Shown piece after piece: positions 46,135-58,008 of a stretch of 64,000 nucleotides of DNA; positions within the stretch are counted from its first letter, which is position 1; each line of letters opens with the position of its first letter. The translations under genes and the position numbers were made by a program. The stretch comes from Microbacterium sediminis (GTDB lineage: Bacteria > Actinomycetota > Actinomycetes > Actinomycetales > Microbacteriaceae): positions 372,001-436,000 of the forward strand of contig NZ_CP038256.1 in NCBI RefSeq assembly GCF_004564075.1, written 5' to 3'. Below the pieces are notes generated by a model. It saw nothing but the letters and a program-made list of their open reading frames with translations. It was not told where the DNA came from and ran no database searches.

Positions 46135-47020
46135 GTGACGCGACAGGAGATCTCTGACGAGGTGTGGGCCGTGATGGAGCCGTTGATGCCGACGGTGACC
46201 GGTCGGTCGCGGCCGTGGACGGATCACCGGCTCGCTATCGAGGGGATGGCGTGGAAGTACCGGACCGGTGCGCCGTGGCGTGACGTTCCGGAACGGTTCG
46301 GGAAGTGGAACTCGATCTACAAGCGGTTCAACCGGTGGGCCGGGGACGGCACCTGGCAGAAGCTGCTCACCGAGGTGCAGAAGCAGGCCGACGCCGCTGG
46401 GGAAATCGACTGGGTCGTCTCGATCGACTCCACGATCGCGCGCGTGCATCAGCACGGCGCGACCCTCGCCCGGGACACAGGGGGCTGTGCCGAATCACAA
46501 GAATCCGTGGTCCGAGCCGCCTGATCACGGGATCGGACGCTCCCGCGGCGGGCTGACGACCAAACTGCACCTGGTCTGCGACGGGCGCGGCCGGCCGCTG
46601 AGCATGATGATCACCGCCGGGAACATCAACGACACCACGATGATGAGCGCGGTGCTGGAGAACATCCGCGTTCCCCGCGACGGGAAGGGCCGCCCCCGCA
46701 CCCGCCCCGACCGGGTGCTCGCCGACAAGGGGTACCCCTCAAGGGCGAACCGCGCCTGGCTCCGCGACCGGAGGATCGCGGCGACCATCCCCGAGCGGGA
46801 CGACCAGATCGCGCACCGCCGCAAGAAGCCGGGCCGGCCGATCGCTTTCGGCGACAAGCAGAAGGAACGCTACAAGGGACGCAACGTCGTAGAACGCTGC
46901 TTCAACCGTCTCAAGCAGTGGCGCGGCATCGCGATGCGCTCGGACAAACTCGCCCGCAACTACCGAGCCGCCGTCAGCCTCGCCGCGGCGCTGATCTGGA
47001 TCAAGACCGATCTCCGCTGA
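46135..47020 (+). CDS. IS5-family transposase, two overlapping frames
   Basis: OrfA 46135-46524 (RQEISDEVWAVMEPLMP; first Asp in VSIDSTIARVHQ) and orfB read in the +1 frame from about 46487 to 47020 (AVPNHKNPW, GLTTKLHLVCDGRGRPL, second Asp in RVLADKGYPSRANR, Glu in VVERCFNRLKQWRG). Joining across the ACAGGGGGCTG run gives 294 aa, the usual IS427-type product, so a programmed frameshift at the G run is likely. Both copies share the same arrangement, which argues against random decay. Confidence 0.88.
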
Positions 47021-49219: not shown

Positions 49220-50224
49220 TCAGCCCGGTCCGATGTCAGGGCTCGGTACTGAGGGGGTGGTCGTGGGCGCGGCGATGTCGACAAGTGCGCCCTCAGTCGG
49301 GACTGCCCGTCGCAGCGCGTCGATCCGAGCGTGAATTGTCGTCTCCGCTCTCGAGCGCGCCAGAGACTCCGCCGGCAGTGGCAGGCGAGGGAGTACCTCA
49401 CTCAGCGCGAGCTCGTGCAGTTCCACAAGGACTTCAGCCAGTGGACCGTGCGCACGACCGGCGTTCAGCGCGAACTCCGTGCTTGCGCGGAGTTCCGACA
49501 GCCACCGCCTTCCCTCCGGTCCCGACATCGGCGTCACCTGCTCACGTATGAGCGCCCGGCTGGCTCCCGCGAAGCCGTCCGAGCGGTGAGCATCGAAGAC
49601 CCAATCGCCCGCGCGACCGACCACAGTAAGTCGATCGACGGATGCCTCGTCGTCGAACTGGCTCACCAGCGCCCGCGTCGCCTCGAACCCCGCGTCGTGC
49701 GTTCGGAGGTCAGGCAACGGAGCGCTCCGTGCGTTGAGAGCTGCAAGCAGGTGCCTCGATGCCTCGGACAGGAGGCTGACAGCGCGGGGCTGGGCGACGA
49801 CGGCAACGTGCGTCTCGAACCCTTCACGTCGGAACAGATCCGCGGTGGCGACCGCTACTTGAGCGGACGAGAAGGAGCCCACGACCAGGAGCGGCCGTCG
49901 ATTCGTGCGCGCATACGCGAGGCAGTCACGCAGCCATACTGAGGCTGCTTCGGCGAAGATGCGCAGCGCTTCCGGCGACCGGGACCGCGACAACTCCACG
50001 TAGCGAGGGTGGAACGCACGCAAGCCGTCTCTGTCGACCACTGCTGCACCAGGATTCTCGGCGAGCAGCCCGCGCGCCGCTCGTCCGCCACCAGCCCCGG
50101 GTTGACCGACTACGAGCGTCAGCGTGGGTGTTGTGCGTCGGTCCGTGGGGGGGAACAGGACAGGGACGATCTTCGCATCGAAGACCGACCGGGCCTCTGC
50201 AGCTTCCAGCTCGAGGTCCGTCAC
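49220..50224 (-). CDS. Zeta-toxin family protein
   Basis: 334 aa. Zeta toxins phosphorylate UDP-GlcNAc and block wall synthesis. The P-loop region reads TLVVGQPGAGGGRAARGLL: the Lys of a canonical GxGKS/T is replaced by Gly. The zeta substrate motif VDRDGLRAFHPRYVEL is conserved, as is FSSAQVAVATADLFRREGFETHVAVVA. A helical C-terminal extension follows. Its start overlaps the stop of the small upstream gene by 4 bp, the usual antitoxin-toxin order. Confidence 0.85.
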   Translation of the reverse strand: MTDLELEAAEARSVFDAKIVPVLFPPTDRRTTPTLTLVVGQPGAGGGRAARGLLAENPGAAVVDRDGLRAFHPRYVELSRSRSPEALRIFAEAASVWLRDCLAYARTNRRPLLVVGSFSSAQVAVATADLFRREGFETHVAVVAQPRAVSLLSEASRHLLAALNARSAPLPDLRTHDAGFEATRALVSQFDDEASVDRLTVVGRAGDWVFDAHRSDGFAGASRALIREQVTPMSGPEGRRWLSELRASTEFALNAGRAHGPLAEVLVELHELALSEVLPRLPLPAESLARSRAETTIHARIDALRRAVPTEGALVDIAAPTTTPSVPSPDIGPG

Positions 50225-50475
50225 GGCAGTGGTCCTGAGAGCTCAGCGATGCGGCTTGTCATTCGCGCGAGCAGCGTTTCGAGCGCCGAACGGTTGAAGG
50301 CGTCGACTTCGACCAGCTCCCGTCGGATCGCGGATGCCTCGGCGAGGGCGTGCTCATGCAACATCGCGCCGTCATCAGCGAGACCCAACAGGGCCGCGAT
50401 TGCGCCGTTCGCTGCCTCGCACGCCGCGTCGTAGGCGGCTAGGTCGTTCGCTCTCCATGCCGATCGAGGCTCCAT
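50221..50475 (-). CDS. Putative antitoxin of the zeta module
   Basis: 84 aa, all-helical, with EHALAEASAIRRELVEVDAFNRSALETLLARMTSRIAEL; the size and helical make-up fit an epsilon-like antitoxin. It is translated before the toxin with ATGA overlap. No DNA-binding motif is obvious. Identification rests on position. Confidence 0.7.
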   Translation of the reverse strand: MEPRSAWRANDLAAYDAACEAANGAIAALLGLADDGAMLHEHALAEASAIRRELVEVDAFNRSALETLLARMTSRIAELSGPLP

Positions 50476-51697
50476 CAGTCCTCCAAGTCGAGTCTACGAG
50501 CAAGCGTCGAGCGGGCCGGCGCGACCGCTACCGACCGATGGTCGATCGGCTTCGGGATCGGCCCTGATCTCCTGGCGCCTGAGGCAGTGTTTTCTCGATC
50601 AGCGTGGCGGCGAACGAGATCGCGGCGGGATAGGAGCCGCCGCGCCCGTGTCACTGATTGCACTGGCAGGCTCGCTGCGCGCCTCCCAGCGACGTCGGTG
50701 GCAGCCAATAGCCTGGTGTAGATGCCCACCTCGAGTCTCGATACACCTTCGCTGCGTAAGGCACGTGGGGCCTTCTTTACGCCTGACGGAGTGACGCGGC
50801 ACCTCGCGGAGTGGGCGATCCAAAGTGCCGATGACACGGTCCTTGAGCCAGCCGCGGGGGAGGCGGCGTTCCTCGTGGCCGCAGTTGACCGGCTCCGCGC
50901 CCTTGGTGCAGCGGAGCCAGTTGTGCACGGCGTCGAGCTTCATGAGGCGTCCGCGCGCGTCGCTGGCGAGCTCGTCGCTGATGCTGGCGGAGTTGCAAAA
51001 ATTCGAGTTTCAGACTTCTTCCTCACCGAGCCCAGTGGTACCTACTCTGCCGTGATCGGCAACCCGCCGTTTATTCGGTACCAGGACTTCTCGGGCGACG
51101 TGCGTGACCGTGCCCGGTTCGCCGCGCAGGCCCAGGGTGTCGCTCTCACTGGGCTCGCTTCGTCGTGGGCCGCCTTCGTGGTGCACTCGGCTGCGCATCT
51201 GCGACGCGGCGGACGGCTCGGCATGGTGCTCCCGGCCGAGCTGCTGAGCACGAACTACGCGGCACCGGTGCGCTCCTTCCTTCTGTCACGCTTCGAGTCG
51301 GTGGAGCTCATTACATTCGAGACGCAAATCTTCCCGGACGCCGAGGCCGACACTGTGCTGGTGAAGGCCGCGGGCTGGCTGGGGGAGCCCGCGGGGGTCG
51401 CGACTCTGCGGCAGACCCGTGATGCCACGACCCTCGGCAACTTGGATGAGGGAACGACGTGGGCGACGACGGATCCCGCGGCTCGTTGGACGCCGTTGCA
51501 CATTCAGGACGCCACTGTTGAGGCCATCGCACGGCTTATGCCATCCGGGGCGTTCGTGCCGCTGCAGGAGTTCGGTGAGACAACGCTCGGCATGGTGACC
51601 GGTGCGAACAAGTTCTTCACGCTGTCGCCGCAGCGAGTGCAGGAACTAGGGCGTGTTGATCAAGAGGTTCCGCTCCTCGGTGGGTGAGTCTTGAACG

Positions 51698-52583
51698 GTG
51701 ACGCGACAGGAGATCTCTGACGAGGTGTGGGCCGTGATGGAGCCGTTGATGCCGACGGTGACCGGTCGGTCGCGGCCGTGGACGGATCACCGGCTCGCTA
51801 TCGAGGGGATGGCGTGGAAGTACCGGACCGGTGCGCCGTGGCGTGACGTTCCGGAACGGTTCGGGAAGTGGAACTCGATCTACAAGCGGTTCAACCGGTG
51901 GGCCGGGGACGGCACCTGGCAGAAGCTGCTCACCGAGGTGCAGAAGCAGGCCGACGCCGCTGGGGAAATCGACTGGGTCGTCTCGATCGACTCCACGATC
52001 GCGCGCGTGCATCAGCACGGCGCGACCCTCGCCCGGGACACAGGGGGCTGTGCCGAATCACAAGAATCCGTGGTCCGAGCCGCCTGATCACGGGATCGGA
52101 CGCTCCCGCGGCGGGCTGACGACCAAACTGCACCTGGTCTGCGACGGGCGCGGCCGGCCGCTGAGCATGATGATCACCGCCGGGAACATCAACGACACCA
52201 CGATGATGAGCGCGGTGCTGGAGAACATCCGCGTTCCCCGCGACGGGAAGGGCCGCCCCCGCACCCGCCCCGACCGGGTGCTCGCCGACAAGGGGTACCC
52301 CTCAAGGGCGAACCGCGCCTGGCTCCGCGACCGGAGGATCGCGGCGACCATCCCCGAGCGGGACGACCAGATCGCGCACCGCCGCAAGAAGCCGGGCCGG
52401 CCGATCGCTTTCGGCGACAAGCAGAAGGAACGCTACAAGGGACGCAACGTCGTAGAACGCTGCTTCAACCGTCTCAAGCAGTGGCGCGGCATCGCGATGC
52501 GCTCGGACAAACTCGCCCGCAACTACCGAGCCGCCGTCAGCCTCGCCGCGGCGCTGATCTGGATCAAGACCGATCTCCGCTGA
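51698..52583 (+). CDS. IS5-family transposase, two overlapping frames (copy B)
   Basis: Same two-frame product as copy A: orfA 51698-52087, orfB to 52583 in the +1 frame, about 294 aa after frameshift at the G run near 52045. Confidence 0.88.
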
Positions 52584-52893
52584 GCGCTTCGCGCTCCTGC
52601 AGCGTGCGCTCAAGCTGTCCCACCGTCGGCGCACCCGCAAAGCCGCGCTCGGTCAGATAGACCCTGCACGCCAAGTCGGCAGTGTTCCCCTGGGACGGGA
52701 ACAAGTCCTGACCGTCCAGAAGAATCGTGGGCGAGCCCGCGAAACCAGAGCTCACCGCCTCAGCCTCGGTGCGGATCAACACGAACTCCACCGGAACATC
52801 GCCCCGTCCGATCGAGTCGAGCACCAGCCGTACTCGATCGCCCGCCTCCTGCCAATTCGGGCAATCCTCGATATGCAGCACCTGGATCTTCAC
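52564..52893 (-). CDS. Passenger thioredoxin-fold-like protein (copy B)
   Basis: 109 aa, identical to 47001-47330, with MKIQVLHIEDCPNW and FAGSPTILLDGQ. Confidence 0.78.
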   Translation of the reverse strand: MKIQVLHIEDCPNWQEAGDRVRLVLDSIGRGDVPVEFVLIRTEAEAVSSGFAGSPTILLDGQDLFPSQGNTADLACRVYLTERGFAGAPTVGQLERTLQEREALSGDRS

Positions 52894-53659
52894 ACGCCCA
52901 TTCTCCCGCGCAACTCACGGCGGCTGGCCACCCCGCACCTTCTTGATCAACACGCCCTAGGCATACCGCGACGCGACCTGCGCCGCGTTTCGCCTCCTGG
53001 CAGTTCGCACCTCCGTGGCCTCGCGCTCACTGATTCGGCGATGACTCGACTGGGGCAGGCAGGGCAAGCGACGTGGTTGCTCTATCCGAGCAACCACCCA
53101 GCTTCGGAGACCCTGGCCTACATCGAGTCCGGACACGCTACGGGCGTGGACACCGCATATAAGTGCCGCGTTCGAAAGCCCTGGTGGAGAGTGCCGGTGC
53201 TCGAGCCGGCTGATCTGCTGCTGACCTACATGAATGCTGATACCGCTCGACTCACGACGAACCAGGCCAGCGCACTCCACCTGAACAGCGTCCACGGCGT
53301 CTACTTGAAGCCTGAGGTGCGTGACGTCGCTCGGGAAGTCTTGCCGGTTGCTTCGCTCAATTCGGTCACGTTGCTCGGTGCCGAGCTTGTCGGTCGCAGC
53401 TATGGCGGTGGCGTGCTCAAGATCGAACCGCGTGAGGCTGACCGATGGTGGATGCCGAGCGTCGTGACGATGACCAAGCATCGCGATGCGCTCGTCGAGC
53501 TGAAGCCACGGGTTCAGCGGCTGTTGCAGACCAAGAATCTGCTTGGCGCGGTCGCCTTGGTTGACGAGGTGATCCTCGGCGACCTTAGCGAGGCGCAGCT
53601 ACGCGCGGTCCGCGACGACCACGCCGCATTCATGCAGCGACGAGTGACAAGGGGAAAGA

Positions 53660-54754
53660 GTGGCTGAACCGAGCCTGAAACAGAGGGCTTGGCCGCTCTT
53701 TGACCGCATCGTCGAGGTGGCAGCCGCTAGGTCAGAGTTCAAAGATGGGCCCTGGCGCGGTGACGATTATGTCCCCGACATCCCAACTCTCCAGACCTTG
53801 CTCGGCGTTCCCCGGTTACTCAACGCAAATAGTCAAAGCGGCGTGCCAGCGCTCGCGCTCGACGTGTGGGTCGCATACGAACTGAGGCGAGCGGGGTTCG
53901 CGTACGACGCTGTCTGGCCGCGCGCAACTCACCCTCGGGTCATGCCGACCCCGGTAGCGAACTATGTCGCGGGTACGACCAAGGATCTTCGTGCGAAGGT
54001 CGGCGCGCAACTTGCGCGACAGACGCCGATGAAGGGCGTCGTCGCTACAGACGCCAAGGTCCTCGGGCGCCACTACATCAAGCAGGTGGATGTGGTCATG
54101 TCCGCCTGGGAGACGGGACCCGAAATCCTCATCTCAACGAAGCGCATGGATAGCTCGTTCGGCAAGAACGCGGCGAACCGAATCGAGGAGGCGTACGGCG
54201 ACGCCAAGAACCTGCGTAGTCGACACCCGCTTGCTGCACACGGCTTTTTGTATGGACTTCGCTCGACGATCTTTGAATCGGAGCCAGACAAGGCCAGGTG
54301 GCTGATCGACTTGCTGGGGAAGCTCTCGCAGGAGGACGACGCGTACGACGCTGTGTGTCTGCTCATGTTGCACTACGAAGGTGCGGCCCCGGAAGGTTCG
54401 GAGGGAGGGCATGAGGATGAGGGCGACGCCGTCCTGAGCGAGCTCAGCACTGAGATCGAGGTCGATGCCCAGGAGGACGAGGGTAGCGAAACTGAAGCCG
54501 TCAGCGTTGAAGTCTCCGGGGTGGAGATTGAGACGGCGATCGCCAACTTGCCGACGGTGAGCATCATCGATCACCCAGATGTTCCGAGAGAGCTCGGAGC
54601 AGGGGTGTTCCTGAAGAAGACCGTGGAGCACGTCCTCCGGTCTACGCCAATCACGATGCACCGCAAAGCCCGAGTCCTCCATGGGTGGCCCGTGGGCGAG
54701 GACCCCGAGGCGACGAAGAAGCGGGCCAACGCGGCTGGCGGCGCCGCTTCGTGA
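53660..54754 (+). CDS. Probable type II restriction endonuclease
   Basis: 364 aa, overlapping the methylase stop by 8 bp. A candidate PD-(D/E)xK-like core is visible: IKQVDVVMSAW, then GPEILISTKRMDSSFGKNAANRIEEAYGDAKNL, where Asp and ISTK could be metal and catalytic residues. The helical region HGFLYGLRSTIF follows. An acidic linker (about 245-285) separates a C-terminal domain (SGVEIETAIANLPTVSIIDHPDVPRELGAGVF). Identification rests on its position behind a methylase plus the ISTK motif; I cannot name a subtype. The gene looks intact although its methylase is broken. Confidence 0.62.
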   Translation: MAEPSLKQRAWPLFDRIVEVAAARSEFKDGPWRGDDYVPDIPTLQTLLGVPRLLNANSQSGVPALALDVWVAYELRRAGFAYDAVWPRATHPRVMPTPVANYVAGTTKDLRAKVGAQLARQTPMKGVVATDAKVLGRHYIKQVDVVMSAWETGPEILISTKRMDSSFGKNAANRIEEAYGDAKNLRSRHPLAAHGFLYGLRSTIFESEPDKARWLIDLLGKLSQEDDAYDAVCLLMLHYEGAAPEGSEGGHEDEGDAVLSELSTEIEVDAQEDEGSETEAVSVEVSGVEIETAIANLPTVSIIDHPDVPRELGAGVFLKKTVEHVLRSTPITMHRKARVLHGWPVGEDPEATKKRANAAGGAAS

Positions 54755-54954: not shown

Positions 54955-57900
54955 GTGCGCGGGGGACTCGAGCGCTGGAAGCGGGGTGTCGGATCGCAGG
55001 GGGTTCGGCAGGCGATGGCCTACGCGTTCAAGGGGAGCTGCGACTCGCACCTGCGCGCGGTGACGGGAGTCGAGGCGCTCGCGGCGTACAGCCGCGCAGA
55101 CGCCCAGCATGTCACCCGATTCACGGTGGAAAACTGCGCGGTGACCGTCGACGGCCTCGACGCCGCTGCGCTCCGCCGCTGGGTCGACGGCCGCGACCCC
55201 GTCACGGACGTTCCGCGCGGCCGCGAACTCGGTTCGCCACAGGCCGATCTGATCTTGGACGGCACGATCAACGCGCCGAAGTCCTATAGCATCGCGGCCC
55301 TGATCAACGACGACCTCGCCACGGAGTTCGAAGCGCTGCAAGACCGGCTCCGCACGCGCATTATGACGACCTGGCGGCGTGAGCTGAACGCGCGCCGAGG
55401 CGCGGGCGGCAGCATCCGGGAGTCGCTTCACCGGATCGAAGTTGTCGAACTTCAGCACAGGCGTTCGCGGGCTTTGGACCCGCACATCCACCGGCACCTA
55501 TGGCTGAACGTCAAGGTGCTCGGCGAGGACGGTAAGTGGTCGAACGTCGACTCCCGGGTAGCGATGAAGCTGCACACGCTGATCAACGCGGAGGGCGAAC
55601 TCGCGGCGCGCACCGACCCGGACTGGATAGCAGCGCTCGTGCGCAACGGCTACTCGATCGGCGACGACGGGGAGATCGCGCAACTCGCCCAAGCTGTCCG
55701 GCCGCTGTCGCGGCGCTCGAACCAGATCGAGGCGAACCGCGCCAAGCTTCTTCTGAAGTGGCGCTCGGAGCATCCCGGCCAGGAGCCCGACCACGACGTG
55801 CTACAGCACCTCGACCGGCTTGCGTGGGCGAAGAACCGCCCGGACAAGCCCGGCGCCGTGGACGAATCGGAGTGGGAGCAGCTCATCCGAGACGAGCTTC
55901 ACGCGATCGACGCCGGGATACTCCGAGAGCGTTCGGCAGCCCGCTCGTGGCCAGCAGCGATCGAGACGCTCGACCGCGACCTGCTCGCTGCCAAGGCGAT
56001 CGTGGATGCCGATAGCCGGTCGACCGCGTGCGGGGGGAGGTTCAGTAGCTATGACCTTCGGGCCGGCGCGACGCGGGCGGTCGCTGCATCCGGAGTGGTT
56101 GCCCGCCGCGACAACCTGCAGGTGCTGATTGACGACGTCGTGGCGCGCGGGCTCACCCAGACCGTCGACCTGCTCGAAGCCGAGGGCGATCGCCCACAGC
56201 ACATCAAGGGATTCATGGCGTCATCGACTGCCCGGCTGAAGGTCGAGCTCGCCGCCAGGTTCGACGCCCTGACGCGGGTCGGCGAGTCGTTCCGCCCCCG
56301 CGCGATCCTCGACATTGCAGGCGCGGTCCTCGATGCTGATGTCACGCTCGACGAGGGACAGATCACAGCGGCGTCGGCGATCGCCGGAACAGATCGGCTC
56401 GTCTCGGTCACGGGCCCCGCGGGCGCTGGAAAGACGACGATGCTCAGGGCCGCTCGCATCGCGCTCGCTCAGCAACAACGTCAGCTCGTCGTCGTCGCGC
56501 CGACCAAGAAGGCAGCGTCTGTCGCGGGCCGCGAGATCGGCGTGACCGCCGTGAGCCTGCATGCGTTGTTGGCCGACTATGGATGGCGGTGGGGTCGCGA
56601 CGAAGCCGGCGCGGAGGTGTGGAGGCGACTGCAAGCGGGCGAGATCGATGAGTGCGTCGGGCGGATCTACACCGGCCCGCGCTACTTTGCACTGGGCGCA
56701 GCTGACCGGGTCGTCGTCGACGAGGCGGGGATGGTCGACCTGCACACCGCCAATGCCCTGGCGGCTATCGCAGCAGAGACGGGCGCGGGCATCGCGATGG
56801 TCGGCGACCATCTGCAGGCCATGCCCGTCGGTCACGCCGGTGCGATGGCATGCATGACCCGACGCGCGACTGCGGTCGTCGAGCTGACGGCGGTGCATCG
56901 CTTCCGCGATCCGAGCTACGCCGCGCTCACGCTCCGCATGCGGGAGCCGGCATCCAAAGAAGCCGCGCTCGCAGTCGCGACCGAACTCGACGCGCGCGAA
57001 CAGATGCACCGTGTGACGGATGCCGCGCAAGCAAGGGATGTGATGGTCGAGGCGTACTTCCGTTGGACGGCCGTGCGCAAGCGAGTCGCCCTCGTCACGA
57101 GCACGAACGATGAGGCGGATGCGATCAACGAGGCGATCCAGGAACGCCGAGTTGAGCTCGGGCAGCTGCATCCGGATCGTCTTGTGGTTGGGCAGGGCGA
57201 ACAGCGGCTACTCGAAGGGGACATCGTTCAGACGCGGCTCAACGACCGAGTGGCGGATGTTGAAAACCGCGCGCTGTGGACGATCCGCCGGGTCCGCGCG
57301 TCCGATGTCGAGCTCGTCGCCCTTGGCGATCGTGGGGACGTGCGGCGCGTGTCGCTCGACTACGCGGCCGAGCACATGCACCTGGCCTACGCGTCGACAG
57401 TGCACGGAATCCAGGGCGAGACGACGGATGCGTCGGTGGTCGGGCCGGGCGTGGATGCCTCGGGACTCTATGTCGGCATGACCCGCGGGCGGGTTCACAA
57501 CGAGGCGATCGCGATGGGGTGGACAGCCAGCGCCGCGCGCGAGCAGATTGCGGACAGCATGATGCGCGGCGTCGCAGAAGTGACGATCGAGGACTCGGTG
57601 CGTGCGGCGCGGGGCGAGTTGGGGAGGGCAGCGAAGGTGACTCGTGACCGAGGGTGGCGTGTCGGAGCGAATGACGATCAAAGCGCAGCGCGCCAGCTCG
57701 ATCACTGGCTGATCTCGAGCCGGGGCGCGCTAGCGTCCCTCGATGCGCGGATCGCCGACGAGGAATCGCAAGGGCACGGTCGCGCGGTCGATTCGGGCGG
57801 TTGGCGTGAGCTTGTCAGTCTGCGAGCCCGTCTTAACGAGCGAGTCGCGGTGGCGTCTCGAAGCGTCGTGGAGCGTACTCGACAGGATGGGCATGTCCGC

Positions 57901-58008
57901 AATGTCGACCCAAGCCAGGTCGGCGTACGCGGGCATCGGAGTGAAGTGGCAGATCCCGTGGCGCGCGGTTCCCTGGTAGGGACTCGCGACGGGCTGGTCG
58001 GGCACTGA
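54955..58008 (+). CDS. MobF-family relaxase/helicase (TraA/TrwC-like)
   Basis: 1017 aa. The N-terminal relaxase domain nicks oriT and stays bound to the 5' end: ILDGTINAPKSYSIAALI matches the TrwC FSAPKS region and ALDPHIHRHLWLNVKV gives the three-His metal site. The middle and C-terminal part is a RecD-like helicase: Walker A VTGPAGAGKTTMLRAA (about residues 484-499), Walker B RVVVDEAGMVD, and STVHGIQGETTDASVV plus GLYVGMTRGRVHN (motifs V-VI). Catalytic Tyr is probably near the N-terminus, but I cannot place it firmly. No coupling protein or T4SS lies nearby. Confidence 0.9.
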   Translation: MRGGLERWKRGVGSQGVRQAMAYAFKGSCDSHLRAVTGVEALAAYSRADAQHVTRFTVENCAVTVDGLDAAALRRWVDGRDPVTDVPRGRELGSPQADLILDGTINAPKSYSIAALINDDLATEFEALQDRLRTRIMTTWRRELNARRGAGGSIRESLHRIEVVELQHRRSRALDPHIHRHLWLNVKVLGEDGKWSNVDSRVAMKLHTLINAEGELAARTDPDWIAALVRNGYSIGDDGEIAQLAQAVRPLSRRSNQIEANRAKLLLKWRSEHPGQEPDHDVLQHLDRLAWAKNRPDKPGAVDESEWEQLIRDELHAIDAGILRERSAARSWPAAIETLDRDLLAAKAIVDADSRSTACGGRFSSYDLRAGATRAVAASGVVARRDNLQVLIDDVVARGLTQTVDLLEAEGDRPQHIKGFMASSTARLKVELAARFDALTRVGESFRPRAILDIAGAVLDADVTLDEGQITAASAIAGTDRLVSVTGPAGAGKTTMLRAARIALAQQQRQLVVVAPTKKAASVAGREIGVTAVSLHALLADYGWRWGRDEAGAEVWRRLQAGEIDECVGRIYTGPRYFALGAADRVVVDEAGMVDLHTANALAAIAAETGAGIAMVGDHLQAMPVGHAGAMACMTRRATAVVELTAVHRFRDPSYAALTLRMREPASKEAALAVATELDAREQMHRVTDAAQARDVMVEAYFRWTAVRKRVALVTSTNDEADAINEAIQERRVELGQLHPDRLVVGQGEQRLLEGDIVQTRLNDRVADVENRALWTIRRVRASDVELVALGDRGDVRRVSLDYAAEHMHLAYASTVHGIQGETTDASVVGPGVDASGLYVGMTRGRVHNEAIAMGWTASAAREQIADSMMRGVAEVTIEDSVRAARGELGRAAKVTRDRGWRVGANDDQSAARQLDHWLISSRGALASLDARIADEESQGHGRAVDSGGWRELVSLRARLNERVAVASRSVVERTRQDGHVRNVDPSQVGVRGHRSEVADPVARGSLVGTRDGLVGH

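Follow-up and report, generated by a model that had tools for sequence, protein, structure and literature searches.

How can a cell survive when the methylase of a type II restriction-modification system is broken and its endonuclease gene remains whole? This question was raised by a locus in Microbacterium sediminis, lying within a window of 64,000 nucleotides (positions 372001–436000 of contig C1) that was analysed as part of a genome of two contigs and 2.92 Mb. There, an adenine methylase gene is interrupted by an IS5-type insertion element, and the gene overlapping its 3' end, predicted to encode the partner endonuclease, has no visible lesion. Both features had been recognized in a first-pass annotation. 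Losing a methylase before the endonuclease is classically argued to kill the cell, and that annotation left four ways out: expression blocked by the element, protection by another methylase, an inactive protein or an absent target site. Among these four, blocked expression fitted best, judged from the gene layout. On balance we lean towards an insertion that silenced a presumably active, presumably methylase-coupled endonuclease in one step and left a remnant operon. The features of the locus are collected in Table 1.

Table 1. Features of the interrupted methylase–endonuclease locus (window coordinates).
Feature	Coordinates	Strand	Basis
N half of gamma-class adenine-N6 methylase	50722–51687	+	Pfam N6_Mtase, Eco57I; PDLC03301
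IS5-type insertion element, 1,309 bp	51649–52957	+	copies in genome; CTAG positions; DUF4096 and DDE_Tnp_1 matches
Transposase, two overlapping frames (51698–52087, 51831–52583)	51698–52583	+	open reading frames; PF13340; PF01609 in the copy at 46268–47020
Passenger open reading frame of the element, "DF family (seleno)protein"-like	52564–52893	-	NF049942, 64.2 bits, below the cut-off of 70
C half of methylase, native from 52957	52873–53667	+	M_Eco57I_C; PDLC03301; start scan
Predicted type II restriction endonuclease, intact, 364 residues	53660–54754	+	homologues, conservation, model, upstream methylase

The Split Methylase Gene

The interrupted gene (50722–53667) encodes an adenine methylase of the Eco57I/TaqI/BseCI type. 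Pfam profile searches matched its N half to N6_Mtase (2.6e-14) and Eco57I (1.7e-11) and its native C half, from 52960 to 53667, to M_Eco57I_C (2.9e-13). The PADLOC type II methylase profile PDLC03301, of 604 positions, was covered at 66–372 by the N half and at 371–601 by the C half. With a GNPPF motif in the former and an Eco57I-type C-terminal domain in the latter, the protein belongs to the gamma class (Eco57I/TaqI), in two pieces.

The N half retains native codons to 51648 or so, followed by 11 element-coded residues and a stop. No native residue was lost at the split, the N half ending in ...QELG and the C half restarting with LGIPRRD. Insert and duplicated target together measure 1,311 bp, so the reading frame was kept, and stops occur in every frame through the element. 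The only in-frame ATG, GTG or TTG ahead of the native C half is an ATG at 52873, within the element.

The N half was 88% identical to its intact relative in Microbacterium esteraromaticum. When the methylase was set against 76 relatives, after exclusion of three diverged sequences, 12 of its 13 departures from conserved columns were shared with that intact relative and the thirteenth was a V to I exchange; neither half thus showed private decay.

The first-pass annotation had placed the split between the catalytic and the recognition parts. The methylase is indeed cut in two, but the cut probably lies inside the recognition part. The match to PF22837 opens with residue 53 of the C half, which aligns to profile position 114, and the recognition domain would therefore start, by extrapolation, about 60 residues before the cut. 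In a model of the intact relative's methylase, the site of the cut coincides with the end of helix 304–310. This model shares fold and domain order with CamA, M.BseCI and M.TaqI (Foldseek E 8.7e-21, 9.8e-19 and 5.8e-14, respectively), at only 11–17% identity; unlike these enzymes, the methylase here is in two pieces.

The Insertion Element

The element has inverted repeats of 16–17 bp and was inserted at a CTAG, with a target duplication of TA (CTAG when the shared ends are counted) at 51646–51649 and 52957–52960. Its DDE transposase, terminal inverted repeats and short target duplication are all those of an IS5-type element. CTAG is scarce in the window, with 25 occurrences against about 58 expected under a Markov model. 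The one at the insertion site is the sole CTAG of the methylase gene, and one other is present in the methylase–endonuclease stretch, at 53727 in the endonuclease.

Six copies of the element were found in the genome. Three of them, including the methylase copy, were compared end to end and were identical over the whole element. Over the 1,200-bp core, the five copies on contig C1 did not differ from one another, and the copy on contig C2 had two differences. Since the copies are identical or nearly so and the methylase halves show no visible later decay, the insertion is, judged from these sequences, recent. The intactness of the endonuclease gene therefore says little about its present use.

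The Predicted Endonuclease and Its Pairing With the Methylase

There is an 8-bp overlap between the endonuclease frame and the methylase stop, and the frame is free of stops and frameshifts. The alignment used 195 homologues: 80 came from the loci and 115 from the 120 listed proteins, of which five were removed as short fragments. In it, 101 columns were conserved at 95% or more, and the endonuclease departed at none of them. D144, S159-x-K161, E176 and E177 were invariant among 32 aligned sequences. Against the intact M. esteraromaticum pair, omega was 0.06 and 0.09 for the methylase halves and 0.09 for the endonuclease, values that are rough because synonymous divergence (dS) was above 1.

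Pairing was examined in the best 80 of 166 confirmed genome loci. In 79 of the 80, a methylase preceded the endonuclease on the same strand, the last locus being interrupted by a contig end, and one was found within 1.5 kb in 12 of 15 other genomes. Such linkage in intact relatives is that of a type II system. With the endonuclease start taken as the nearest start codon ahead of the matched part, 73 of 79 loci showed an overlap with the methylase stop, of 11 bp in 62 and of 8 bp, as here, in seven.

None of the 79 methylases carried a stop in the matched range, and among the 80 endonucleases one, from Massilia terrae, was interrupted by a stop at codon 75; another two stops, both at codon 341, correspond to the natural end. 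A whole endonuclease beside a broken methylase is thus a rare state, and these counts are consistent with the classic lethality argument.

A predicted model of the endonuclease showed a PD-(D/E)xK-like core, so that the structure prediction proposed in the first-pass annotation, where the lack of any nuclease fold would have counted against an endonuclease, pointed to a nuclease. The six best structural rows were all restriction endonucleases, and no Foldseek match reached E ≤ 0.001. BbvCI, PspGI, Kpn2I, AgeI and BsaWI were 6–14% identical to the predicted protein. Given the conserved methylase pairing, the nuclease-like core and the intact conserved residues, the 364-residue frame very probably encodes the cognate endonuclease of the split methylase.

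The family comprises at least 2,578 homologues, with loci from actinobacteria and proteobacteria. The 120 listed homologues yielded 28 source names, each of them reading hypothetical or uncharacterized. The endonuclease itself had no profile match in Pfam, NCBIfam or PADLOC, and weak matches to a single PADLOC profile for type II endonucleases came from 13 of 32 family members, the best at E 0.0058. A sequence search of the Protein Data Bank returned nothing for the single endonuclease and two irrelevant rows (E 0.7–0.9) for the family profile. In viral contigs, no relative was found with patterns built from the single sequence. The XhoI/PaeR7I family, which we take to be represented in Pfam, was not among the seven Pfam families listed for the 32 members at E ≤ 1. 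Membership of the CCGG (NgoMIV/Cfr10I) family was also rejected: its mark, according to a part of PMC6326814, is an R-S-D-R-like motif shortly after the catalytic lysine, and here R-M-D-S-S-F-G-K-N follows K161. This large family, unnamed in the libraries searched, is the most useful by-product of the analysis.

Three relatives were found in other surroundings. In one (genome G009, L027:5426–9870), the endonuclease homologue is divergent to a cytosine-5 methylase with a C-terminal part that resembled Vsr on visual inspection, and a different adenine methylase comes next; from its gene order, this arrangement is a partner exchange. In another (G061, L028:7570–12317), an N-truncated homologue lies immediately before a HamA/HamB (Hachiman-like) pair. 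In the third (G033, L026:3370–5735), a 547-residue frame and a frame that looked caspase-like by eye precede the intact relative pair, perhaps in a defence island.

Survival With an Interrupted Methylase Gene

The locus appears to be a methylase–endonuclease operon of a widespread, unnamed type II family, recently broken by the IS5-type element. The endonuclease gene is whole, yet the cell most likely no longer produces harmful amounts of the enzyme. With its start codon inside the methylase 3' end, translation of the endonuclease is probably coupled to that of the methylase. Because this start position recurs in the 73 overlapping relatives, the insertion would remove the shared message and any coupling, a single event cutting both. 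The C half lacks a good start signal, which supports silencing. The locus would then be a young remnant heading for decay.

Several observations weigh against silencing. The transposase frames read in the same direction as the methylase and towards the endonuclease, and no terminator-like site was found on the + strand inside the element, so read-through into the endonuclease is possible. The endonuclease also has a Shine-Dalgarno-like stretch of its own, AAGGGGAAAGA; under a loose test, 74 of 79 relatives have one too. No promoter-like site was found on the + strand between 50400 and 54800, although the scan covered the sigma-70 consensus only, which limits its weight for silencing.

Survival in such a state has precedents. 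Ershova et al. (2012; PMC3488263) analysed 272 solitary endonucleases, of which 74 are full-length with a neighbouring methylase gene that may be inactive; types are not separated in the parts of that paper drawn on here, and its authors suspect sequencing errors in some cases. The same paper recounts that deletion of the PaeR7I methylase was tolerated, the endonuclease then being inactive. With these 74 printed cases and PaeR7I, the lethality that the first-pass annotation had expected loses its force as a paradox. As in the solitary endonucleases described in those parts of PMC3488263, a full-length endonuclease was found here beside a disrupted methylase, with intact orthologous systems elsewhere and no other cognate methylase found in the genome. 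The published cases carry a truncation, frameshift or premature stop, whereas this methylase gene was broken by an identified, recent insertion that spared every native codon. The locus adds one case to an already known kind. Literature searches aimed at such a case, a type II methylase split by an insertion beside an intact endonuclease, returned no paper with a title to that effect. With all native codons still present, the locus offers a recent, clean test case of survival after loss of a type II methylase.

The alternatives to silencing make different demands on the two proteins. An endonuclease that needs its methylase for full activity would be harmless alone even if made, an explanation by analogy with PaeR7I that we regard as fairly unlikely. 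The near-unbroken pairing of the two genes fits such dependence, and the weak avoidance of CTCGAG, the PaeR7I site, favours it. That site is a weak guess here, however, no XhoI-type Pfam match was obtained in the 32 family members, and the G009 relative places its endonuclease beside quite different methylases; what the two cases would share is a methylase lost without cell death, as told for PaeR7I in the Discussion of PMC3488263. It is unlikely, too, that the two halves still form a working methylase, in which case the cell would be protected and the endonuclease might be active. Both halves are open with no native residue lost, the element gives the C half an in-frame ATG, and fragment complementation is reported, in the part of PMC3404938 used here, for the cytosine methylases M.SssI, M.HhaI, M.BspRI and M.BsuRI. 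Yet this ATG has no Shine-Dalgarno-like stretch, the cut probably falls in the recognition part and not in a linker, and the best artificial M.SssI pairs, again cytosine enzymes, reached about 4% activity in extracts (PMC3404938). Were the fragments to reassemble well enough to protect the genome from a still working endonuclease, which is quite doubtful, the transposon would have made a heterodimeric methylase, a natural two-piece adenine enzyme, in one step.

The endonuclease may instead have been inactive already, through a change in promoter, variable residue or folding that is not visible here. Lineage survival would require it to be harmless at or before the insertion, and HindVP, with endonuclease homologues lacking visible activity, is a precedent told in PMC3488263; the absence of departures at conserved positions and an omega like that of the methylase halves make this improbable, although with so recent an insertion they say little about the present. 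Protection of the same site by another methylase, for which the presence of other methylases in the genome might speak, is very improbable. In the genome search suggested in the first-pass annotation, the methylase of the intact relative matched the two halves and, weakly, two other sequences (E 6.8e-5 and 0.003), PF22837 occurred once, and no second relative or solitary cognate methylase was found. A target site missing from the genome or very scarce in it, as in the PacI precedent told in PMC3488263, can be given hardly any credence: in 156 kb of this genome, only six of 64 palindromic 6-mers were missing (five of A/T only, plus ACTAGT), an argument that an 8-bp or AT-only site would escape. 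CTCGAG occurred 192 times there, so site absence could not explain survival if that guess is right. Silencing by the insertion thus remains the reading that we favour.

Candidate Target Site

According to PMC4687349, roughly half of such systems showed site avoidance, which is governed by residence time. Across the 80 carrier loci, in three groups, CTCGAG had the lowest combined score of the 64 palindromic 6-mers, with observed/expected ratios of 0.70, 0.76 and 0.65, and AGATCT came next. When carriers were set against non-carriers, no word in the comparison ranked below CTCGAG, either in Microbacterium (0.80 vs 0.89, z -1.5) or in the genus of genome G320 (0.54 vs 0.75, z -2.5). In a second region set from the same genomes, it ranked second after CCATGG (z -1.4), and with both sets pooled it ranked first (z -2.75), with the 4-mer ACGT at -2.63.

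A per-genome test of 10 carriers and seven non-carriers gave a one-sided p of 0.044 for CTCGAG, uncorrected over 34 words, and a lower value, 0.028, for GCCGGC. Carriers were uneven: no avoidance was seen in G040 (1.02) or in G033 (1.05), which has the closest pair, and the ratio in the M. sediminis genome was 0.90. By avoidance, CTCGAG is weakly indicated as the best single target candidate, and the endonuclease family thereby comes with a testable guess.

Other Methylases and Restriction Systems in the Genome

No cytosine-5 methylase (PF00145) or Dam-type methylase (PF02086) was found in the genome, other methylase families beyond those named here not having been searched. The further methylases were two type I HsdM proteins, a type IIG-like frame of 1360 residues that covers 132–1371 of 1378 profile positions and looks whole, an N6/N4 methylase and, on contig C2, a truncated piece of Eco57I type; protection by any of them is unlikely. 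Of 59 genomes from the genus, 57, this one included, carry the N6/N4 methylase (L043:5471–6412; contig C1, 2560473–2561411), which is apparently a core orphan. The Eco57I/IIG-type piece (L042:3010–8701), apparently N-truncated, lies beside two frames that we take to be IS110-like and a copy of the IS5-type element whose flanks form a palindrome and not a target duplication.

The same IS5-type element also separates the two recognition halves of a type I hsdS gene (L040:6909–9419; contig C1, 186.9–189.4 kb), and hsdM and hsdR there look whole. Half-HsdS proteins can be active, and a changed specificity of this system is possible. In a second type I system (L039:8354–15322; contig C1, 99.4–106.3 kb), hsdR is cut by an IS481 pair with an IS5-type copy between. 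This hsdR ends inside one IS481 copy, and a frame past the second copy weakly matches the hsdR C-terminal part (E 4.8e-6).

All three multi-gene restriction systems found are thus interrupted by insertion elements, and the strain is therefore probably more open to foreign DNA; selection and drift both fit. Of the six element copies, two are embedded in restriction genes, and one more is flanked by the IS481 pair that disrupts hsdR. No significance is claimed for this clustering, since insertions in dispensable DNA are expected.

Neighbouring Genes

Just upstream of the methylase lies a Zeta-toxin-like gene (49220–50475; PF06414, 2.6e-26) with a small overlapping frame on the minus strand. Directly downstream of the endonuclease, a TrwC/MobF-type relaxase-helicase is encoded at 54955–58008, and a related pair is carried by the MOBF plasmid pCha1 of Corynebacterium halotolerans.

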